This document shows positions 8,074 to 38,992 of a stretch of 62,934 nt of DNA, in pieces. The stretch is from Marinifilaceae bacterium (GTDB lineage Bacteria; Bacteroidota; Bacteroidia; Bacteroidales; Marinifilaceae), in the NCBI GenBank assembly GCA_016936255.1, contig JAFGYE010000077.1:1-62934 (forward strand), given 5' to 3'. Position numbers and translations under genes: made by a program. Under the pieces are notes generated by a model. The model searched no databases and had not been told where the DNA came from. It was given only the letters and a program-made list of their open reading frames with translations. Each line of letters begins with the position of its first letter. Position 1 is the first letter of the stretch.

Positions 8074-9072
8074 ATGGATACTAAGAGAGAATTTAAAGCG
8101 CTGCGGATTTACGAAGAAGAAGGGAAATACATTCGAAGAATTGAAAAAAGGAAAATTGAAGATCTTCCGGATGGAGAAGTAATTGTGAGAGTGAAGTATT
8201 CTTCTTTGAATTTTAAAGATGCACTTTCGGTTTCAGGAAATAAAGGAGTGACTCGAAAATATCCGCATACGCCGGGTATTGACGCGGCAGGAGTTGTGGA
8301 ATATTCAGCGAGTGAAAGGTTTAAAGCCGGCGATGAAGTAATTGTAACCAGCTACGATTTGGGCATGAATACCGATGGTGGTTTTGCAGAATATATTCGG
8401 GTGCCGGAATCTTGGGTCGTTGCAATGCCAAAAGAATTGGACTTTAAACAAGCCATGATTTATGGAACTGCTGGATTTACGGCTGCTTTATCAGTGTATC
8501 GCTTGTTGTCGGCAGGACAAACTCCAAAAATGGGGCCGGTAGTGGTTACAGGAGCCTTAGGTGGAGTGGGTAGTATTGCTATTAGTATATTGGTTAGTTT
8601 AGGCTTTGAAGTAATTGCAGCGACTTTCGAAAACAGTGGTGGTGAAGATGAATTACACGAATTAGGTGTTGCTAGTCGCATTAGTAGTGAAATTACTGAT
8701 GATCAATCGGGAAGACCATTATTAAAGCCACTTTGGGCTGGAGCCATTGATGTTATTGGTGGAAATACTTTGCATACACTTCTTAAAGCTTGCAAACCAT
8801 TGGGAAATGTGACCTGTTGTGGTAATGTTGGCTCAGGAGATTTAGCAATGACGGTTTACCCTTTCATTCTAAACGGAATTAGTTTAATTGGTATTGATTC
8901 TCAGAATTGCCCAATGGAATTGCGCCAAAAAGTTTGGAACAAGTTGGCTTCCGATTGGAATGTTTACAGCAACAAAGAGCAGGTTATTGAGTCATCTTTA
9001 GAAGAATTGGATACCTATATTGATTTAATGTTGGCAAAGAAGAGTCGCGGGAGAGTTATTGTGAAACTATAG
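8074..9072 (+). CDS. YhdH/YhfP-family NADPH quinone oxidoreductase (acryloyl-CoA reductase-like)
   Basis: A 332-residue cytoplasmic medium-chain dehydrogenase/reductase without structural zinc. The N-terminal GroES-like domain has YSSLNFKDALSVSGNKGV and the GIDAAGVV turn. The Rossmann domain carries GALGGVGSIAISIL. These are signatures of the YhdH/YhfP/AcuI group. AcuI reduces acryloyl-CoA to propionyl-CoA with NADPH, while other members reduce quinones. The substrate here is open. The gene is divergent from an HxlR regulator, which suggests induction by a reactive carbonyl or quinone. Confidence 0.88.
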   Translation: MDTKREFKALRIYEEEGKYIRRIEKRKIEDLPDGEVIVRVKYSSLNFKDALSVSGNKGVTRKYPHTPGIDAAGVVEYSASERFKAGDEVIVTSYDLGMNTDGGFAEYIRVPESWVVAMPKELDFKQAMIYGTAGFTAALSVYRLLSAGQTPKMGPVVVTGALGGVGSIAISILVSLGFEVIAATFENSGGEDELHELGVASRISSEITDDQSGRPLLKPLWAGAIDVIGGNTLHTLLKACKPLGNVTCCGNVGSGDLAMTVYPFILNGISLIGIDSQNCPMELRQKVWNKLASDWNVYSNKEQVIESSLEELDTYIDLMLAKKSRGRVIVKL

Positions 9073-32365: not shown

Positions 32366-34177
32366 ATGAGGAATTTAAATTACGGGGTAATAGGAAATTG
32401 TAGAAGTGCGGCACTGGTTTCGGAAAAGGGGTCGTTGGATTGGGTGTGTTTGCCACAATTTGATTCATCTTCGGCATTTGCTAAGTTGTTGGATAAGAGT
32501 AAGGGTGGGAGTTTTGAAATTTTGCCTGAGAGTGCAACAGATATAACGCAGGAGTACCGGAAAAATACAAATATTTTAAAAACACGTTTTGAGTGTGTCG
32601 ATGGAGTTTTTGAAGTATTGGATTTTATACCCAGATATGTGACAGAAAAAAATGATTACTACATGCCATCTGATGTGATTCGTTTTTTTCGATTGGTTTA
32701 TGGGAAACCAAAATTTCGTATTAAATACAATCCGCAACTCGATTATGCCCGAAATATTACAGAAAATAAAGTGTCGGGAGAGGAATATATCAAATCCTAT
32801 ACAGCATCAGGAAATTACGATTCCTTGTATTTGTATTCCAGTTTTAATTATTCCGATATATTGAATCAGGAAGTCATTGAATTGGAAAAAGATGGGTTTT
32901 GCCAGGTAAGCTACAATCAGAAATTGTTGGAACAAACACCCGACCGTATTTATTTGAAATTGCAGCGGACAAAAACATATTGGCTGAACTGGAGTGAAAA
33001 AACAAAAGTACTGCCGAAATACAACGAAGAAACCAATCGAAGTGCATTGGTTTTGAAATTATTAAGTTATCAGAAAAGTGGGGCGGTTCTGGCAGCATTA
33101 ACAACTTCTTTACCCGAAACAATTGGGGAAGTTAGAAATTGGGACTACCGCTTTTGCTGGATTCGCGATGGCTCTATGGTTGTTAAGATTCTCACCCAAT
33201 TGGGACATTATAATGTGGCAAAACGATACCTGAATTTTATTATGGATATCATTCCTGAGAAGAATGAGAAAATTCAGATCATGTATGGGATCAATGGTGA
33301 AAAAAAGCTTTCAGAATATGAATTGGATCACCTTGCAGGTTATGAAGGATCAAAACCGGTAAGGGTTGGGAATGCGGCCTACAAACAAAAGCAGAATGAT
33401 ATATATGGAATATTGCTGGATTTGATTCATCAGCATTTCGAAATGTTCGAAAATTCTCTCGACCATAGTGAGGAATTGTGGACCATTGTAAGAAGTATTG
33501 TGAAGGTTGTAGAGGAGAACTGGAAAAAACCGGATCGTGGAATTTGGGAAATCCGGGGCAAGAGTCTCCATTTTACTTTTAGTAAAGTGATGTGTTGGGT
33601 GGCTTTCGACCGGGCGGTTAAAATTGCAAGTCTTTTGAAGCGCGATTATTATGTAGGAAAGTGGACTGTTCTTCGGCATTCGGTGAAAGCAGATATCATG
33701 AAAAAGGCTTGGAGTGAAAAGAAACAGGCGTTCACCCAATTTTATGGCTCTGAGGATATGGATGCTTCGGTTTTGCTGATGGAAAGCTATGGTTTTATCA
33801 ATGCCACAGATGAGAAGTATAAATCGACAGTACTAACCATTCAAAACGAATTGGAACACGACGGTTTGATGTATCGTTATAAAAACAAGGACGATTTTGG
33901 GACGCCAAAGTCAGCCTTCACAATTTGTTCTTTCTGGTTAATCAACAGTTTGTATAAAATTGGCAGAAAGAAGGAGGCGAAAGAGAAATTTGATAAATTG
34001 CTTACTTACTCGAATCATCTTGGTTTGTTTGCTGAGGATATCGATTTTGTGTCGAAACGGATGCTTGGGAATTTCCCACAGGCCTATTCGCATTTGGCGA
34101 TAATCGAAACAGCTCTGAACTTTTCAAATACTAAAGCAGAGGACGAAGAGAGCCTTCTGGATCAATTGAATAGTTAA
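32366..34177 (+). CDS. Glycoside hydrolase family 15 protein (glucoamylase/trehalase-like)
   Basis: A 603-residue cytoplasmic enzyme without signal peptide. The N-terminal domain begins YGVIGNCRSAALVSEKGSLDWVCLPQFDSSSAFA, typical of the GH15 family. The (alpha/alpha)6 barrel carries NWDYRFCWIRDGSMV, RGIWEIRG (probable acid glutamate) and HLGLFAEDID (probable base, E557). GH15 includes glucoamylases, glucodextranases and bacterial trehalases. The divergent pairing with a trehalose synthase/phosphatase fusion favours a trehalose or alpha-glucan role, but this is inferred from context. Confidence 0.88.
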   Translation: MRNLNYGVIGNCRSAALVSEKGSLDWVCLPQFDSSSAFAKLLDKSKGGSFEILPESATDITQEYRKNTNILKTRFECVDGVFEVLDFIPRYVTEKNDYYMPSDVIRFFRLVYGKPKFRIKYNPQLDYARNITENKVSGEEYIKSYTASGNYDSLYLYSSFNYSDILNQEVIELEKDGFCQVSYNQKLLEQTPDRIYLKLQRTKTYWLNWSEKTKVLPKYNEETNRSALVLKLLSYQKSGAVLAALTTSLPETIGEVRNWDYRFCWIRDGSMVVKILTQLGHYNVAKRYLNFIMDIIPEKNEKIQIMYGINGEKKLSEYELDHLAGYEGSKPVRVGNAAYKQKQNDIYGILLDLIHQHFEMFENSLDHSEELWTIVRSIVKVVEENWKKPDRGIWEIRGKSLHFTFSKVMCWVAFDRAVKIASLLKRDYYVGKWTVLRHSVKADIMKKAWSEKKQAFTQFYGSEDMDASVLLMESYGFINATDEKYKSTVLTIQNELEHDGLMYRYKNKDDFGTPKSAFTICSFWLINSLYKIGRKKEAKEKFDKLLTYSNHLGLFAEDIDFVSKRMLGNFPQAYSHLAIIETALNFSNTKAEDEESLLDQLNS

Positions 34178-34249: not shown

Positions 34250-34621
34250 TTAGCCTTTCAGTAAACTGATTACCTCTTTTAAGGTTTTGTTTTCGTTTTC
34301 GAGTAATTCGATTCTTTTTTTAAGGCCATCTACTTCTGCATCTATCTGAGATAGTTCCATGCCTTTTTCTACCGCCTTTTGTGATTGATTCTCTCTCTCG
34401 AGTCTATTCGCAATTTCCTGAAAAATATTTAATTCAAGAGCCTGACAGATACTCCATAGTCTGTTTACCTGAAGTGTTGATCTGTTCAGTTGTTGGTGAA
34501 GTGAAATAGGGCGGATATTAATTTTCATTGCTAACCAGCTTACCGTTAGGTTTCGTTTCGATAAGTTTTGTCGAATCATTCGGTGAATGCTAAACGGGAT
34601 TTTTTCTGATTTTGGGTTCAT
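34250..34621 (-). CDS. HTH protein with C-terminal leucine zipper; candidate binder of the 21-bp array
   Basis: A 123-residue putative DNA-binding protein. Residues about 10-72 look like a Cro/CI-type helix-turn-helix: SIHRMIRQNLSKRNL, TVSWLAMKINI, RPISLHQQLNRST and RLWSICQALELN as four helices. Residues 88-122 form a near-ideal coiled coil. The a positions are L90, V97, I104, N111 and I118; the d positions are I93, L100, L107, L114 and L121. An asparagine at an inner a position is the mark of parallel dimeric zippers of GCN4 type, so I predict a dimer. Its own upstream region, 123 bp from the start, contains a phased 21-bp repeat array with dyad-like units. Binding of that array is inference; the family is not one I can name. 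Confidence 0.75.
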   Translation of the reverse strand: MNPKSEKIPFSIHRMIRQNLSKRNLTVSWLAMKINIRPISLHQQLNRSTLQVNRLWSICQALELNIFQEIANRLERENQSQKAVEKGMELSQIDAEVDGLKKRIELLENENKTLKEVISLLKG

Positions 34622-34744
34622 GCGTATTTGGCGGGTTTAAAAATTAATATTCTTCCTGATTCAGTTCATCCGTTTCTTTTACAGAAATTGTAAACCTGAG
34701 AGCAAATATGCTTTCTACAAGTATAAAGTTAAACCTTATAAATA

Positions 34745-34975
34745 GTAAAATCAATAGTGTAGTAATGAAAATACATCCTTTAAGATGTATAAAACTTAAT
34801 AATTTAAGTAAGAAAGATATTCCGATATGTAAATTACCTACCTGAATAAGTAAAAAAGATAATTATAGATGTAAAAAACGTTTTATAGTAAGTAAAGTAC
34901 ATGGTAAAATATGTAAAAAGCATCGTATAAATAGTAAAATATATATCCGAAGATGTAAAATACGTATTAGGGGTA
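34745..34975. repeat. Degenerate tandem array, 11 units with exact 21-bp period
   Basis: Eleven consecutive units start at 34745, 34766, 34787, 34808, 34829, 34850, 34871, 34892, 34913, 34934 and 34955, with no insertion or deletion. Column consensus: positions 1-6 GTAAAA, 7-11 WACAT, then a variable stretch with T or C at 14 and mostly A at 17-18, ending in A/T. GT at 1-2 is kept in 10 of 11, A at 3 in 11 of 11 and T at 11 in 11 of 11. The flanking AT of the previous unit plus GTA, three A-rich bases and TAC form an imperfect dyad (clearest at 34892 and 34953-34965). The period equals two helical turns, so all sites face one side of the DNA. Stops in all examined frames argue against coding. 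Confidence 0.85.
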
Positions 34976-35020
34976 CATAGCGTCCAACTACGAAGCTTTT
35001 GTTGGTGACTGAGAAGAAAA

Positions 35021-35047
35021 AGAGCTTGCCGAATTACGACAAGCTCT
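35021..35047 (-). terminator. Terminator of the secreted Asp-box/PKD protein gene
   Basis: The stem AGAGCTTG / CAAGCTCT (35021-35028 with 35040-35047) is followed on the minus strand by TTTTTCTT. Confidence 0.75.
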
Positions 35048-35071
35048 CACTAAAATACCTGTTTGATCTTC

Positions 35072-38000
35072 TTATTTCACCAACAGCTTTCCCTTGTATA
35101 TTTTCTCACCCGAAAGGTTGATGATATGCACACCGGGTTTTAATTGTTCCCGGTTTATAATTACGTTGTTTCCTGTGATGTTTTCAATAATCCGAACCAC
35201 CCGGCCACTTGCATCCACAACCACCAACCGGTATTTCTGATTGGTTTGGTTGGGAAAAACTACATTACTCTTGTGCAACAGAGGATTCGGGTAGATCTTT
35301 AATTTATCTGCTTTATTCGAGTTTAAATCATCTTCAATTCCGGTTGCTACATCACTAAACCCAACCAAGGCTTTTATGGCCAGGGAGGTATTGTTTCCAA
35401 ATACTTCGTTATAAGGTTCCCATGCATTATTGTAATGCATGTATGCAGTATTGGCCCATTCGGCATCTGCTTGTAAGGGCAGGTGAGCAACGGCAAATGT
35501 GTCAATGGGCATTTCGTATAAAACTTCGTAGCCTACAAAGAAATTCTTGTCAACAGCAACAGGGAAATCCAGTTCGATGTCATTAAATTCTCCTGCCACC
35601 AATTCTGTAAAGGGAACAGATTTAGAGTAGACTTCATTGGTAGGTTCATTGGATCCGTTCCAAATTTTAATAATTATATGCGGATCAGCGGAATTTGACT
35701 GCAGTAAAGATGGCATAATTTTGATCTGTTTAACTGCATTTAAATTAGGATTTATCATCTCAAATTTCTCAGCGTATTGATCAATTTTCAGGTTCGTTTG
35801 TCCTGTTATATAGCCATCATTATCGCCGGTAAATATATATTGAGTCAATTGATTCTCAAATTCACCTTCTATATTGTAAAGCAAATCATCATCAAAATCA
35901 TCGGCATCAAGAACGGTAATGTATCCTGTTTTAATTTCTGTGTCGTTGAATTCAGCATCACGAACAACCAATGTCACGTCAAATGTACCAACGGTACTGT
36001 AGGTAACAACAGGATTTTGTTCTGTTGAACTTTCAGGCGTTCCACCCGGGAAACTCCAGTTCCAGGATGTGGGTGTCCCAACGGTTTGATCAGTAAATGT
36101 AATTTGCGTATCCACATTAATATTTGTAGCGCTGGCAGTAAATTTAGCGCCAACTGTTTTTACAATTATAGCGGAGGTAATTGTTTGAGTATTTGAACCA
36201 GCAGCATTTGCCGCAGTTAATGTCACCGAATGAACACCTGGAGTTTTGTAGACAATTGCCCGGGGATGTTCGTCGGCCGAAGTTGTTGTTTCGGCTCCTT
36301 CAAATGTCCATTCCCACTTGGTAAACCCATCGCCAATACTTCTGTTCATGAAATCAACTGCTTCTCCTATTTGAATAGAATCTTTTGTCATTCCAATTAG
36401 TGCAACAGGAGCAGCAGAGCTAAAATCATCATCAGCTGTAAATACCCCATTACCATGAGTTGCAACAGCAAAGAATCCATCTCTGCGAGCTTTTATCATT
36501 GAAACAACGCTGGTTCCGATTTGGTTAATTGCTTGCTGTGTCCAGATAGTAGAACTTCCCTCAAGTTTTGTTGTACTGTACAAACCGGTACTGGTACCTG
36601 CATAATAGGTAGTGTCAGTTGGTGAAACCATGTAAGCTGCTGAGCGGATGGACGGACCATTATTCTCACCATTTATTTCTTCCAGATTTCCACTTACAGG
36701 AGTCCAGGTGGTTCCCCCATCGGTAGTACTAAATATACTTTCAATTCCGTAATTGGAAAATCCGACCAATACTTCATTCGCATTTAAAGGGTTTACATCA
36801 ATAGAAATTACATTTCCAGCTGGCATATTTGTTCCTGTAATGTCGTTTTTCTTTGCCCATTTCGAGTGCGAATTTTCAATTTTATAAATTTTTCCTGTTG
36901 ATGTTCCATAATACAGAATGTGAGCAGGGAAGGTTGAGGATTCCATTGCCGATACAGTTCCGCTTGCTTTTGATATTTCCAGTTTTTCCCAATTTATATT
37001 GGCTTCATTGGATTGTAGTTTTGGAATTTCAAAAATATTGGAATTTCTCCAGATGTATTGTCCTGCAGCATAGTATAAAATTTCACTGTTGTTGGCATCC
37101 TCAACAAATGGATTGATAAACAATTGTCCGGTTGCTCCCTCTGGATCAACACGGGTCCAATAGTAACTTGCCTCGTCTGTTACGTTATTTTCAAGGTAAG
37201 TGGTGCCGCTTTGTGAAGAAGAGTAGATACTGGTACCTAAATTAAAAATACTGCAGTAACTGCCGTCGCCTGACCCCCAGGCTAACCAATCTTTATCAGA
37301 ATCGGAAGTTTCAGCAAGCCAGGTACCGTTGTCCTGAAATCCGGAAAGTAATACTTTGTTTGTTCTTATATCGTTATCAACAGCGACTGTATAAGCTTGT
37401 GTTGTTAGGTAGCCATTGTTCAGAAATTCCCAATCAACAGGCATGCTTTTGTCTCCTGCTGTTTCAGAAAATGTATCGTCTGTTTGTTTATAGTTGTTCG
37501 TAATGCTTATTCCACCATCGTGTCCGCATAGTAATGTTGCATTATCATTCTTAAATACTAATGCATGTACATCCGGATGATGATTTGGATACTGACTAAT
37601 ATTATTTTCGGTAGCGTAGCCTCCGATCCAGTAGGTTTTTGATTCATCGGTCGATTTCCCAACACTTAAAGGACTTGCTTTTGTAGCAAAAGCATCATCG
37701 GAACGAAGCAGATTAGTGCCGCCGATAAATACCATATTTTCATTATCCGGAGCAACTTTTATTACCATATTGTAAGACCCCTGTGAGTTGTAACCATTTA
37801 CATCTGTGTCCCCGTCGCCACCTTCCGGTAGATTTTGTGACCGGTCTACCCATGTTGCCGGAGTTGTTGCAGCAGCATTATAAGTCAATTTCCAAAAACT
37901 GTGATCCTGAAAACCTGCTCCTATTGTTTCACCTAAAATATAAACAATATCATTGGTCGTATTACTTGGTGCATGTGCTAGTACCACTCTGTTATAATCT

Positions 38001-38992
38001 GCAGGAAATCCACTAGGAGTAATGTCTTCCCATTCATTTAAATTTCCTGTTACCGATCTGTAGATTCCTTTTGTTGTACCATCGGCACTTAAAGAAGCGT
38101 ACTTAATCCCGCTGGGAGTACAGATAATATCTTCATAATAGGAATCTGACGCGATAGCATCAGCCCATGTAGTTCCTCCATCTGTAGAACGTTTAATACC
38201 ATCAGCAGTTGCAACATATACATCGCTGTTGTTCGGGTCAACGCATATATTCCAGATATAATCAAAAGCATCATATATTTCAGATGTGTTGGATGCGGTA
38301 GAGGCTAAAGATGTCCAGTTGTCGCCGTTATCCGTTGATTTAAACAGCCCATTTCCCCGGTAAGGAGCGCCACCTGCCGATGCTGAATTACCTATTAGTT
38401 CTCCGGTTGTATAATACCAGATTGCAGTGTTGTTTGGATCTTGTGCAATAGAAGTTACACTAGGGTGGTCTTCAAGCTTTGTTGTTCGGGTCCAACTAGC
38501 TCCGTTATCGGTTGATTTCCACATTCCGCCGGTTGTTCCGCCAGCAAGAATTATATTTTCATTTGCTATGTCAACAGCCAGAGCCCTGGTTCTTCCACCA
38601 ACATTTCGAGGTCCGCTATTGATATAGCTTAATCCTCCTGTTTTTAATCTGCTTTGCAAACCTGAGGCTGAGGAAAGGACATATGCCTTTTCCAGTTCTT
38701 TAATGTTTAATGGGATCTGTCCCGTAAGGGGGTTTTTTAGTAGGTTTCTTTCGTACAAGGCTCTGGCAATAGGATCATCCGCACGTTTTGGTTTTCCCGC
38801 TTCTTTGTCCGCAATTTTAGCCAACTTTCTCTTGTTTAATGTTGGATTGGTTAAATCATTGTACGTTTTTTCGGTTATTACGATATTTTTCACTCCTAGT
38901 GTAGAGTGCTTTTGTGCTGTTAGTTTTTTATTTTGCGCAAGTGTTGGAAAAGAAATCGCTATTGCGAGTAGTATGGTGAAAATTGATTTCAT
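35072..38992 (-). CDS. Secreted Asp-box (BNR/sortilin-like) protein with PKD domains and T9SS sorting signal
   Basis: A 1306-residue secreted protein. Its signal peptide is FTILLAIAISFPTLAQ. Residues about 110-870 form a beta-propeller-like region with Asp-box repeats (SxDxGxxW): STDNGASW, STDNGDNW, STDGGTTW and TTDGGTTW. Two PKD domains follow (about 875-955 and 957-1040; GDGFTKWEWTFEGAETTT and GTPTSWNWSFPGGTPESS). A further beta domain comes next, then a C-terminal type A sorting domain (about 1235-1306; LKIYPNP ... GRVVRIIENITG ... YKGKLLVK). The last marks export by the type IX system to the cell surface. No catalytic residues can be assigned; sortilin-like propellers usually bind proteins or glycans. 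It is monocistronic. Confidence 0.9.
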   Translation of the reverse strand: MKSIFTILLAIAISFPTLAQNKKLTAQKHSTLGVKNIVITEKTYNDLTNPTLNKRKLAKIADKEAGKPKRADDPIARALYERNLLKNPLTGQIPLNIKELEKAYVLSSASGLQSRLKTGGLSYINSGPRNVGGRTRALAVDIANENIILAGGTTGGMWKSTDNGASWTRTTKLEDHPSVTSIAQDPNNTAIWYYTTGELIGNSASAGGAPYRGNGLFKSTDNGDNWTSLASTASNTSEIYDAFDYIWNICVDPNNSDVYVATADGIKRSTDGGTTWADAIASDSYYEDIICTPSGIKYASLSADGTTKGIYRSVTGNLNEWEDITPSGFPADYNRVVLAHAPSNTTNDIVYILGETIGAGFQDHSFWKLTYNAAATTPATWVDRSQNLPEGGDGDTDVNGYNSQGSYNMVIKVAPDNENMVFIGGTNLLRSDDAFATKASPLSVGKSTDESKTYWIGGYATENNISQYPNHHPDVHALVFKNDNATLLCGHDGGISITNNYKQTDDTFSETAGDKSMPVDWEFLNNGYLTTQAYTVAVDNDIRTNKVLLSGFQDNGTWLAETSDSDKDWLAWGSGDGSYCSIFNLGTSIYSSSQSGTTYLENNVTDEASYYWTRVDPEGATGQLFINPFVEDANNSEILYYAAGQYIWRNSNIFEIPKLQSNEANINWEKLEISKASGTVSAMESSTFPAHILYYGTSTGKIYKIENSHSKWAKKNDITGTNMPAGNVISIDVNPLNANEVLVGFSNYGIESIFSTTDGGTTWTPVSGNLEEINGENNGPSIRSAAYMVSPTDTTYYAGTSTGLYSTTKLEGSSTIWTQQAINQIGTSVVSMIKARRDGFFAVATHGNGVFTADDDFSSAAPVALIGMTKDSIQIGEAVDFMNRSIGDGFTKWEWTFEGAETTTSADEHPRAIVYKTPGVHSVTLTAANAAGSNTQTITSAIIVKTVGAKFTASATNINVDTQITFTDQTVGTPTSWNWSFPGGTPESSTEQNPVVTYSTVGTFDVTLVVRDAEFNDTEIKTGYITVLDADDFDDDLLYNIEGEFENQLTQYIFTGDNDGYITGQTNLKIDQYAEKFEMINPNLNAVKQIKIMPSLLQSNSADPHIIIKIWNGSNEPTNEVYSKSVPFTELVAGEFNDIELDFPVAVDKNFFVGYEVLYEMPIDTFAVAHLPLQADAEWANTAYMHYNNAWEPYNEVFGNNTSLAIKALVGFSDVATGIEDDLNSNKADKLKIYPNPLLHKSNVVFPNQTNQKYRLVVVDASGRVVRIIENITGNNVIINREQLKPGVHIINLSGEKIYKGKLLVK

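Follow-up and report, generated by a model that had tools for sequence, protein, structure and literature searches.

The window, i.e., the whole stretch of 62,934 bases that was analysed and that constitutes an entire contig of a draft genome with chromosomal-type genes, contains an array of eleven 21-bp units upstream of a gene for a small helix-turn-helix (HTH) protein with a predicted coiled coil. The array, its period, and its upstream position are conserved at orthologous loci, arrays of the same kind recur with sequences of their own upstream of many related genes, and the window array is present as a single copy in its genome. From the comparison of sequences, we consider it probable (roughly 0.6) that this array is a private cooperative operator of the adjoining HTH-zipper protein; binding of the array by this protein, cooperativity, and autoregulation are what we infer. 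The Labilibaculum-like genome that carries the window presents the following features around the array:

32366..34177, plus strand: glycoside hydrolase family 15 (GH15) protein, convergent gene beyond the HTH gene (ORF and protein search)
34250..34621, minus strand: gene for the 123-residue HTH and coiled-coil protein (ORF, profile, and predicted structure)
34622..34744, minus strand: putative promoter and leader region belonging to the HTH gene (from the sequence)
34703..34744, no strand: possible faded continuation of the array (weak matches to the unit consensus)
34745..34975, no strand: array of eleven 21-bp units (autocorrelation and unit alignment)
35072..38992, minus strand: PKD/secretion-tail protein, 3' end toward the array (ORF and protein search)

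The window array is real. Self-identity of the segment 34720-34985 at lags of 21, 42, and 63 bp amounts to 0.51, 0.55, and 0.51, respectively, vs 0.33 after shuffling (z of 6.3, 7.3, and 5.7), values that none of 2000 dinucleotide-preserving shuffles reaches, and in a lag-21 scan of the whole window the top 17 positions all overlap the array. An initial annotation of this DNA had described a contiguous, indel-free series of eleven units with ten of them starting with GTA, and this description is confirmed for the 231 bases at 34745-34975. It had also proposed autocorrelation as a check; a periodicity exceeding that of shuffled sequences is found, and period as well as position are kept in related species. 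On the plus strand the units are GTAAAAWACATANTNNAATAW-like; read in the direction of the HTH gene, they alternate in the alignment between TTTTACAT and TTTTACTT, a hint of a 42-bp repeat. In line with this hint, lag 42 exceeds lag 21 in the window array, with p values for an alternating 42-bp unit of 0.07 (window) and 0.016 (orthologue L010). Agreement with the consensus extends to 13-17 of the 21 positions in each of the eleven units. The stretches starting at 34703 and 34724 match the consensus at 11 and 12 of 21 positions, with a 99th percentile of 11 in the nearby background, and the match falls to 6 beyond 34975. The imperfect dyad GTA-N3-TAC ascribed to the unit turns out to be weak, as both halves are present in only 3 of the 11 units and the dyad test gives p values of 0.044 for the window array and of 0.28 and 0.13 for two orthologues. 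The remark that columns 12-21 vary is roughly correct, except for columns 14 and 20, which are conserved in 9 of the 11 units.

No model of NCBIfam or Pfam matches the 123-residue protein at its cut-off, a Pfam HTH match remaining below threshold. The predicted fold (mean pLDDT of 83.5) consists of a four-helix HTH within residues 12-62, followed by a 57-residue helix, the putative coiled coil, comprising residues 66-122. The HTH is predicted to be of the SinR/434 type. Foldseek searches with the predicted structure retrieve Cro/C1-type proteins (best E value of 8.9e-3, none ≤0.001), a profile of 50 family members matches SinR with an E value of 4.9e-6, and HTH_26 is detected at E ≤0.01 in 30 of 50 family members. 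By prediction, the protein has a Cro/C1 (XRE) HTH fold, and the Cro/C1-type autoregulators C.Esp1396I, SinR, and HipB are among its fold or sequence matches. Its closest named relatives are those of Labilibaculum euxinus and L. manganireducens (98% identical), followed by Marinifilum. Searches of phage, plasmid, and IMG/VR collections with the HTH protein gave zero matches and thus no support for an origin from a phage or plasmid. A role in anti-phage defence was also discarded, as the searched proteins gave weak matches only and the window protein none.

Genes for a partition NTPase (ParM, ParA, or TubZ) or a Rep initiator are absent among the genes adjoining the window array, and the statement that no Rep or Par gene is in view holds for these neighbours (GH15, PKD/secretion-tail, and HTH). 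Also, a ToxN-type RNase gene is absent after the repeats, which are followed by the HTH protein gene instead. All 6 orthologous loci of the Labilibaculum type that were compared have the GH15 gene as their convergent neighbour. On the other side of the array, a terminator-like hairpin with a T run is situated behind the PKD/secretion-tail gene at window positions 35012-35069, so that the transcript of this gene probably stops short of the array; STnc390 of Rfam matches the hairpin below threshold. The array sits at least 121 bp upstream of the start codon of the HTH gene. Positions 34718-34725 read TATACTTG on the minus strand, which is one mismatch away from TAnnTTTG, the motif that we take to be the Bacteroidota -7 consensus and by which we read these positions as a putative promoter. 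No exact TAnnTTTG was found between the window array and the HTH start codon; of the 31 loci having room for the motif in this interval, 8 contain it. Arrays of the window type are located upstream of the presumed promoter.

In the two orthologous loci with 98% identical proteins, the array aligns over its full length, that of L. euxinus carrying an internal 1-bp deletion. Among three orthologues, 39 of 251 sites are variable in the array vs 14 of 186 in the flanks, and columns with conservation between units are the less variable ones (rho of -0.55, p of 0.009). As the columns conserved among units are the ones conserved among species, sequence is constrained and not spacing alone. More distant orthologues (L011, L012, L013, L160, and L161), whose proteins are 46-61% identical, likewise carry 21-bp arrays at this position but with different unit sequences, indicating that period and position outlive sequence; L014 stays below the strict threshold with 0.162 at lag 63. 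The expectation that the array would be kept at the orthologous locus with its spacing held while its sequence drifts is borne out by the Labilibaculum orthologues and these relatives. Of the further proposal that spacing rather than exact sequence is under selection, the first half stands, and the second does not, in view of the constrained columns.

Phased arrays are a recurrent feature of the HTH-zipper family. The sample comprises 148 family gene hits (125 and 22 from family searches plus L004) and leaves out four rows from the window's own genome as well as G257:C13 and G141:C9, which contain internal stops; for two hits upstream DNA is insufficient and 146 were scored. Upstream regions were called array-positive at an excess identity ≥0.18, a threshold chosen after a first look, with a best lag of 21, 42, 63, 22, 44, 66, or 41, the last being admitted after L095 had been seen. 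An array is present upstream of 54 of the 146 genes vs downstream of 1 of 147, where the hits are mutually related and the counts not independent. As controls, 700 random flank windows yield 16 positives and 438 shuffled upstream regions yield 1; 15 of these 16 random windows have best lags of 42-66 and none of 21, and only 2 of 700 reach 0.25 at any lag. The 38 upstream regions with values ≥0.25 have best lags of 42 (14), 21 (11), 63 (9), 44 (2), 22 (1), and 41 (1). The remaining 92 of the 146 upstream regions are not array-positive. In the genome of the window three out of four family genes (L001, L002, and L004) possess an array, and L003 does not. Seven more distant loci were obtained by a later search in other genomes or contigs and five of them have a 21-bp array, the exceptions being L232, where the gene is broken, and L233, which belongs to an array-free branch.

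On a protein tree of 132 members, array presence requires 12 changes vs 41 after shuffling, and none of 500 shuffles is as low. A large branch, including for example L032, L033, L038, and L051, is free of arrays. Tandem pairs of HTH-zipper genes occur among relatives from this branch (L032, L033, L038, L039, and L100). All four arrays with a 22-bp period belong to a single group of six related proteins, whose two remaining loci are cut by contig ends. Support is just 84/31 for this group and 100/99 for its two halves, and a further search identified no additional close members. From this clustering it looks as if the protein might set the period. Array-bearing proteins of 99 to 142 residues all go along with a 21-bp period, which argues against the coiled coil as period-setter, and helical phase is the likelier reason for the 21 bp. 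The arrays consist of 6-13 units (median of 9), six being the floor of the counting method. In none of 53 arrays do units resemble their nearest neighbours more than the next-nearest at p ≤0.01, and this lack of distance decay argues against recent local duplication. The association of arrays with HTH-zipper homologs that the initial annotation had put up for examination is strong, as the upstream and downstream counts indicate, but an invariable one it is not, since two solitary arrays in genome G122 and 13 arrays with another gene family, both described below, lack an adjoining HTH gene.

The unit sequences seem to be private to each protein. The mean similarity of array motifs is 0.73 for proteins that are at least 70% identical and 0.86 for those at least 95% identical, and falls to the baseline of about 0.31 below 40%. 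For proteins with more than 70% identity, this similarity may reflect common descent of the DNA instead of recognition. Among 38 proteins that are all less than 70% identical, a Mantel r of 0.145 is obtained and none of 2000 permutations is as high. Paralogues from the same genome have a motif similarity of 0.316, the same as all others (0.316). A sequence model of the window array detects four places in its own genome, all of them in the array (47-55 bits), and as the next match has 14.9 bits and an E value of 0.11, a second copy was rejected. A pattern search of this genome gave 24 matches vs 41 for the reversed control, and only the array and C4:33039-33089 go beyond chance. At the latter place (G000:C4:33039-33089, about 2039-2090 of L170), approximately four TTAC-containing units are spaced 21 bp apart before a large regulator-type gene; they are perhaps AraC-type direct repeats. 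In G191, 7 of 7 matches of the L073 unit are situated in its own array (control 0), and in G117 the own array holds 7 of 10 unit matches (control 3). In G122, the L029 unit has 25 matches vs 7 for the control, of which 6 belong to its own array, 13 to two other places, and 6 are scattered. These two places are same-period arrays between convergent genes without an adjoining HTH gene:

G122:C33:25730-25940, no strand: solitary array L175 (1-7001), from the unit search
G122:C33, about 8630-8800, no strand: solitary array L176, from the unit search

The two share their motif with the array of the HTH gene of this genome (similarities of 0.86 and 0.67), and one of them adjoins a ribosomal-protein operon, a gene of which was recognised by eye. 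In 853 kb of fetched DNA, covering the loci collected before those of the second family and lag 21 only, no array with an excess ≥0.25 was found more than 700 bp away from a family gene, save for a run of N.

Two layouts of arrays can be distinguished. In 21 of 53 cases the array ends ≤30 bp from the start codon, and 16 of these have significant dyads, e.g., AGGTTTAAAACCT, vs 2 of the 32 arrays ending farther out (Fisher p of 1.6e-7, rows not independent), which adds up to 18 of 53 arrays with dyad units. Arrays that reach the start codon cover the leader and any promoter there, suggesting repression. The window array is of the farther-out kind. At Labilibaculum-type loci, 38-278 bp separate the array from the start codon, and over all loci this distance ranges from 1 to 324 bp. 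Lag 42 is significantly higher than lag 21 in 4 of 53 arrays and the reverse is the case in none of the 53.

A comparison of neighbouring genes revealed that in ten loci a gene for a protein of about 160 residues, for which we coin the name AAP, precedes the array. Pfam provides no match at E ≤0.01 for 29 AAP members and NCBIfam nothing at a convincing level for three of them; AAP is confidently predicted to be helical (pLDDT of 92) and its predicted fold has no match in the PDB. Of the 295 genomes in the class sample, 39 encode homologs, and the genome of the window is one of them:

G000:C115:12769-13215: AAP gene with array (L224) in the window's genome, from the AAP family search

Thirty AAP loci (L197-L226) were examined among the matches listed, and a phased array is present downstream of the AAP gene in 20 and upstream in 3 of them. 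Seven of the 20 downstream arrays run on into an HTH-zipper gene and 13 are without a following HTH gene, as read within about 1.5 kb, i.e., 13 of the 23 AAP loci with an array lack such a gene. In L207 the array is located behind a second AAP gene and in L208 it is upstream, and L206, L210, and L216, whose strong signals are at 43 or 64, were scored as negative. AAP arrays of 22-bp or 43-bp period exist in L219, L225, and L216, and L219 (0.65) and L225 (0.56) are the most regular arrays of all. The AAP-only arrays share no motif with HTH arrays of the same genome, and the possibility that they are trans targets of the HTH proteins encoded there received no support, only the two solitary arrays of G122 sharing such a motif. 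Single queries with AAP gave no match in phage and IMG/VR collections, and there is one plasmid match (L227, 39.6% identity) on pTs417 of the gammaproteobacterium Candidatus Thiodictyon syntrophicum, without a downstream array. AAP-only arrays speak most strongly against a reading as autoregulation alone and, together with the solitary arrays, suggest a function beyond the control of one gene.

If the window array is a private operator, dimers of the HTH protein would bind to its 21-bp units, or to pairs of units as the 42-bp signal hints, on one face of the helix, with contacts from dimer to dimer made by the coiled coils or by the HTH domains. About ten units would thereby become a nucleoprotein array beside the promoter of the gene, and the HTH gene would be steeply controlled by its own product. 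The cooperative loading site for an HTH filament, one of the candidates of the initial annotation, comes close to this reading. The operator reading draws on the upstream-only placement of arrays in the family, on best lags of about two helical turns or multiples thereof in all 38 strongest cases, on array presence following the protein tree, and on motif similarity tracking protein identity and not a shared genome. In addition, 18 of 53 arrays have the dyad units that one would expect with an HTH dimer, the columns that units have in common are kept between species, units show no distance decay, five of the seven later loci possess an array, and an HTH of the SinR/434 type with a 57-residue helix is predicted. 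Against it speak the 92 array-negative upstream regions, which include L003 from the own genome, and the AAP-only and solitary arrays, for which an adjoining HTH gene is not required. Also, the gap of 38-278 bp and the unclear dyad at Labilibaculum-type loci make a plain repressor dimer fit less well, and the sub-cut-off Pfam match, the relatedness of the hits, and the post-hoc threshold of 0.18 weigh on the same side.

A wider reading, which we advance only tentatively, considers the arrays as private DNA addresses used throughout the Bacteroidota. Phased arrays of about 200 bp, accompanied by HTH-zipper or AAP genes or solitary between convergent genes, would form nucleoprotein filaments that organise or mark the chromosome, each genome having many orthogonal copies. 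Somewhat less probable still seems that the arrays are anchor or loading sites of a DNA-organising or centromere-like system, in which the HTH protein, or another protein at AAP-only loci, would act as adaptor and control of a gene would be secondary. The nucleoid or centromere-like anchor of the initial annotation belongs to this reading. The G122 arrays between convergent genes, which have no promoter to serve and carry the motif of the HTH array, would fit such a system, as would those that follow an AAP gene in 20 of 30 loci and the widely varying distance to the start codon. However, the window array is single-copy in its genome, units of two other genomes are confined to their own array (G191) or occur outside it at chance level (G117), genomes hold several unrelated private arrays, and a ParA- or ParM-like gene is absent from the ORF list and from the three neighbouring proteins searched. 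Furthermore, the array is located upstream and not downstream of the HTH gene, which suggests control of that gene.

It is very improbable that the array acts as a transcribed repeat RNA, be it a leader or a small RNA, as in type III toxin-antitoxin systems. The 21 arrays that end within 30 bp of a start codon could be transcribed and the folded minus strand is slightly more stable than shuffled sequences (z of -2.24, 5 of 200 as stable), but all periods come close to two or four turns of DNA, which is meaningless for an RNA, the predicted fold is not periodic, units drift in sequence, and no Rfam family matches at E <0.1, two sub-threshold matches having E values of 0.11 and 0.14. Even less credit can be given to ordinary tandem repeats arising by slippage or to curvature of AT-rich promoter DNA, in either case with no cognate protein, since, although the window array is AT-rich (GC of 0.23 vs 0.36 for the whole window) and has A-runs at its start, AT-preserving shuffles lack such periodicity, periods do not vary as those of slippage products would, units show no distance decay, columns are conserved between species, and GC-rich arrays with the same period exist (L217, L219, and L226). 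Curvature by phased A-tracts, which had been offered as a possible role, was rejected as a general cause because of these GC-rich arrays and of class members without A-tracts, e.g., L217, L219, and L085.

The private-operator reading can be compared with several known systems. According to PMC9426499, ParR-parC of ParMRC plasmids consists of an adaptor gene beside direct repeats of 10, 11, 17, or 20 bp, with sequence and spacing specific for each family and recognition of the cognate repeats only. The arrays described here resemble that account in that a gene for a DNA-binding protein adjoins cognate direct repeats private to each family, but they are apparently chromosomal, lack an adjoining ParM-like gene, and keep a fixed period of 21-22 bp across many families with 6-13 units; also, ParR is a ribbon-helix-helix protein, whereas the protein here has a Cro/C1-type HTH and a coiled coil, as predicted. 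Iterons of plasmid origins are direct repeats of about two helical turns that are bound by the protein of a neighbouring gene. The present arrays are likewise two-turn direct repeats beside the gene for a DNA-binding protein, but they differ by the lack of a recognised Rep gene, by the protein family, and by units that are private to each apparently chromosomal gene. Several Cro/C1-type autoregulators bind cooperatively to adjacent operators and control their own gene. C.Esp1396I, SinR, and HipB share the HTH fold predicted for the window protein but make use of two to a few operators, in contrast to about nine strictly phased units and a long C-terminal helix. Direct half-sites of the AraC type have a spacing of about 21 bp, i.e., two helical turns, similar to the one found here, but comprise two to four sites and involve another protein family. 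Finally, TAACTGA heptamer repeats of Beggiatoaceae, Cyanobacteria, and some Bacteroidetes are intergenic and often placed just before start codons; according to PMC4679880, they are one fixed 7-bp sequence repeated every 7 bp, with a proposed role in translation and without a cognate gene. Intergenic direct repeats are common to both, whereas the 21-bp period, the private sequences, and the adjoining HTH gene set the present arrays apart from that description.

No published description of such arrays was found in a literature search that was a weak test, several of its terms being too narrow. The evidence points to a widespread, apparently undescribed regulatory or DNA-organising device, and there is a real chance that the arrays represent a kind of system separate from cooperative operators and from centromere-like repeats. 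If the private-operator reading is true, many Bacteroidota genomes would hold several orthogonal pairs of a protein and its array. Such pairs would amount to a natural library in which DNA-binding proteins are matched with cooperative multi-site operators and spacing is held while both partners drift. Co-evolution of regulators with their sites and the importance of helical phasing in cooperative assembly would become directly testable, and a first handle would be obtained on two protein families for which there is no curated model among those used.
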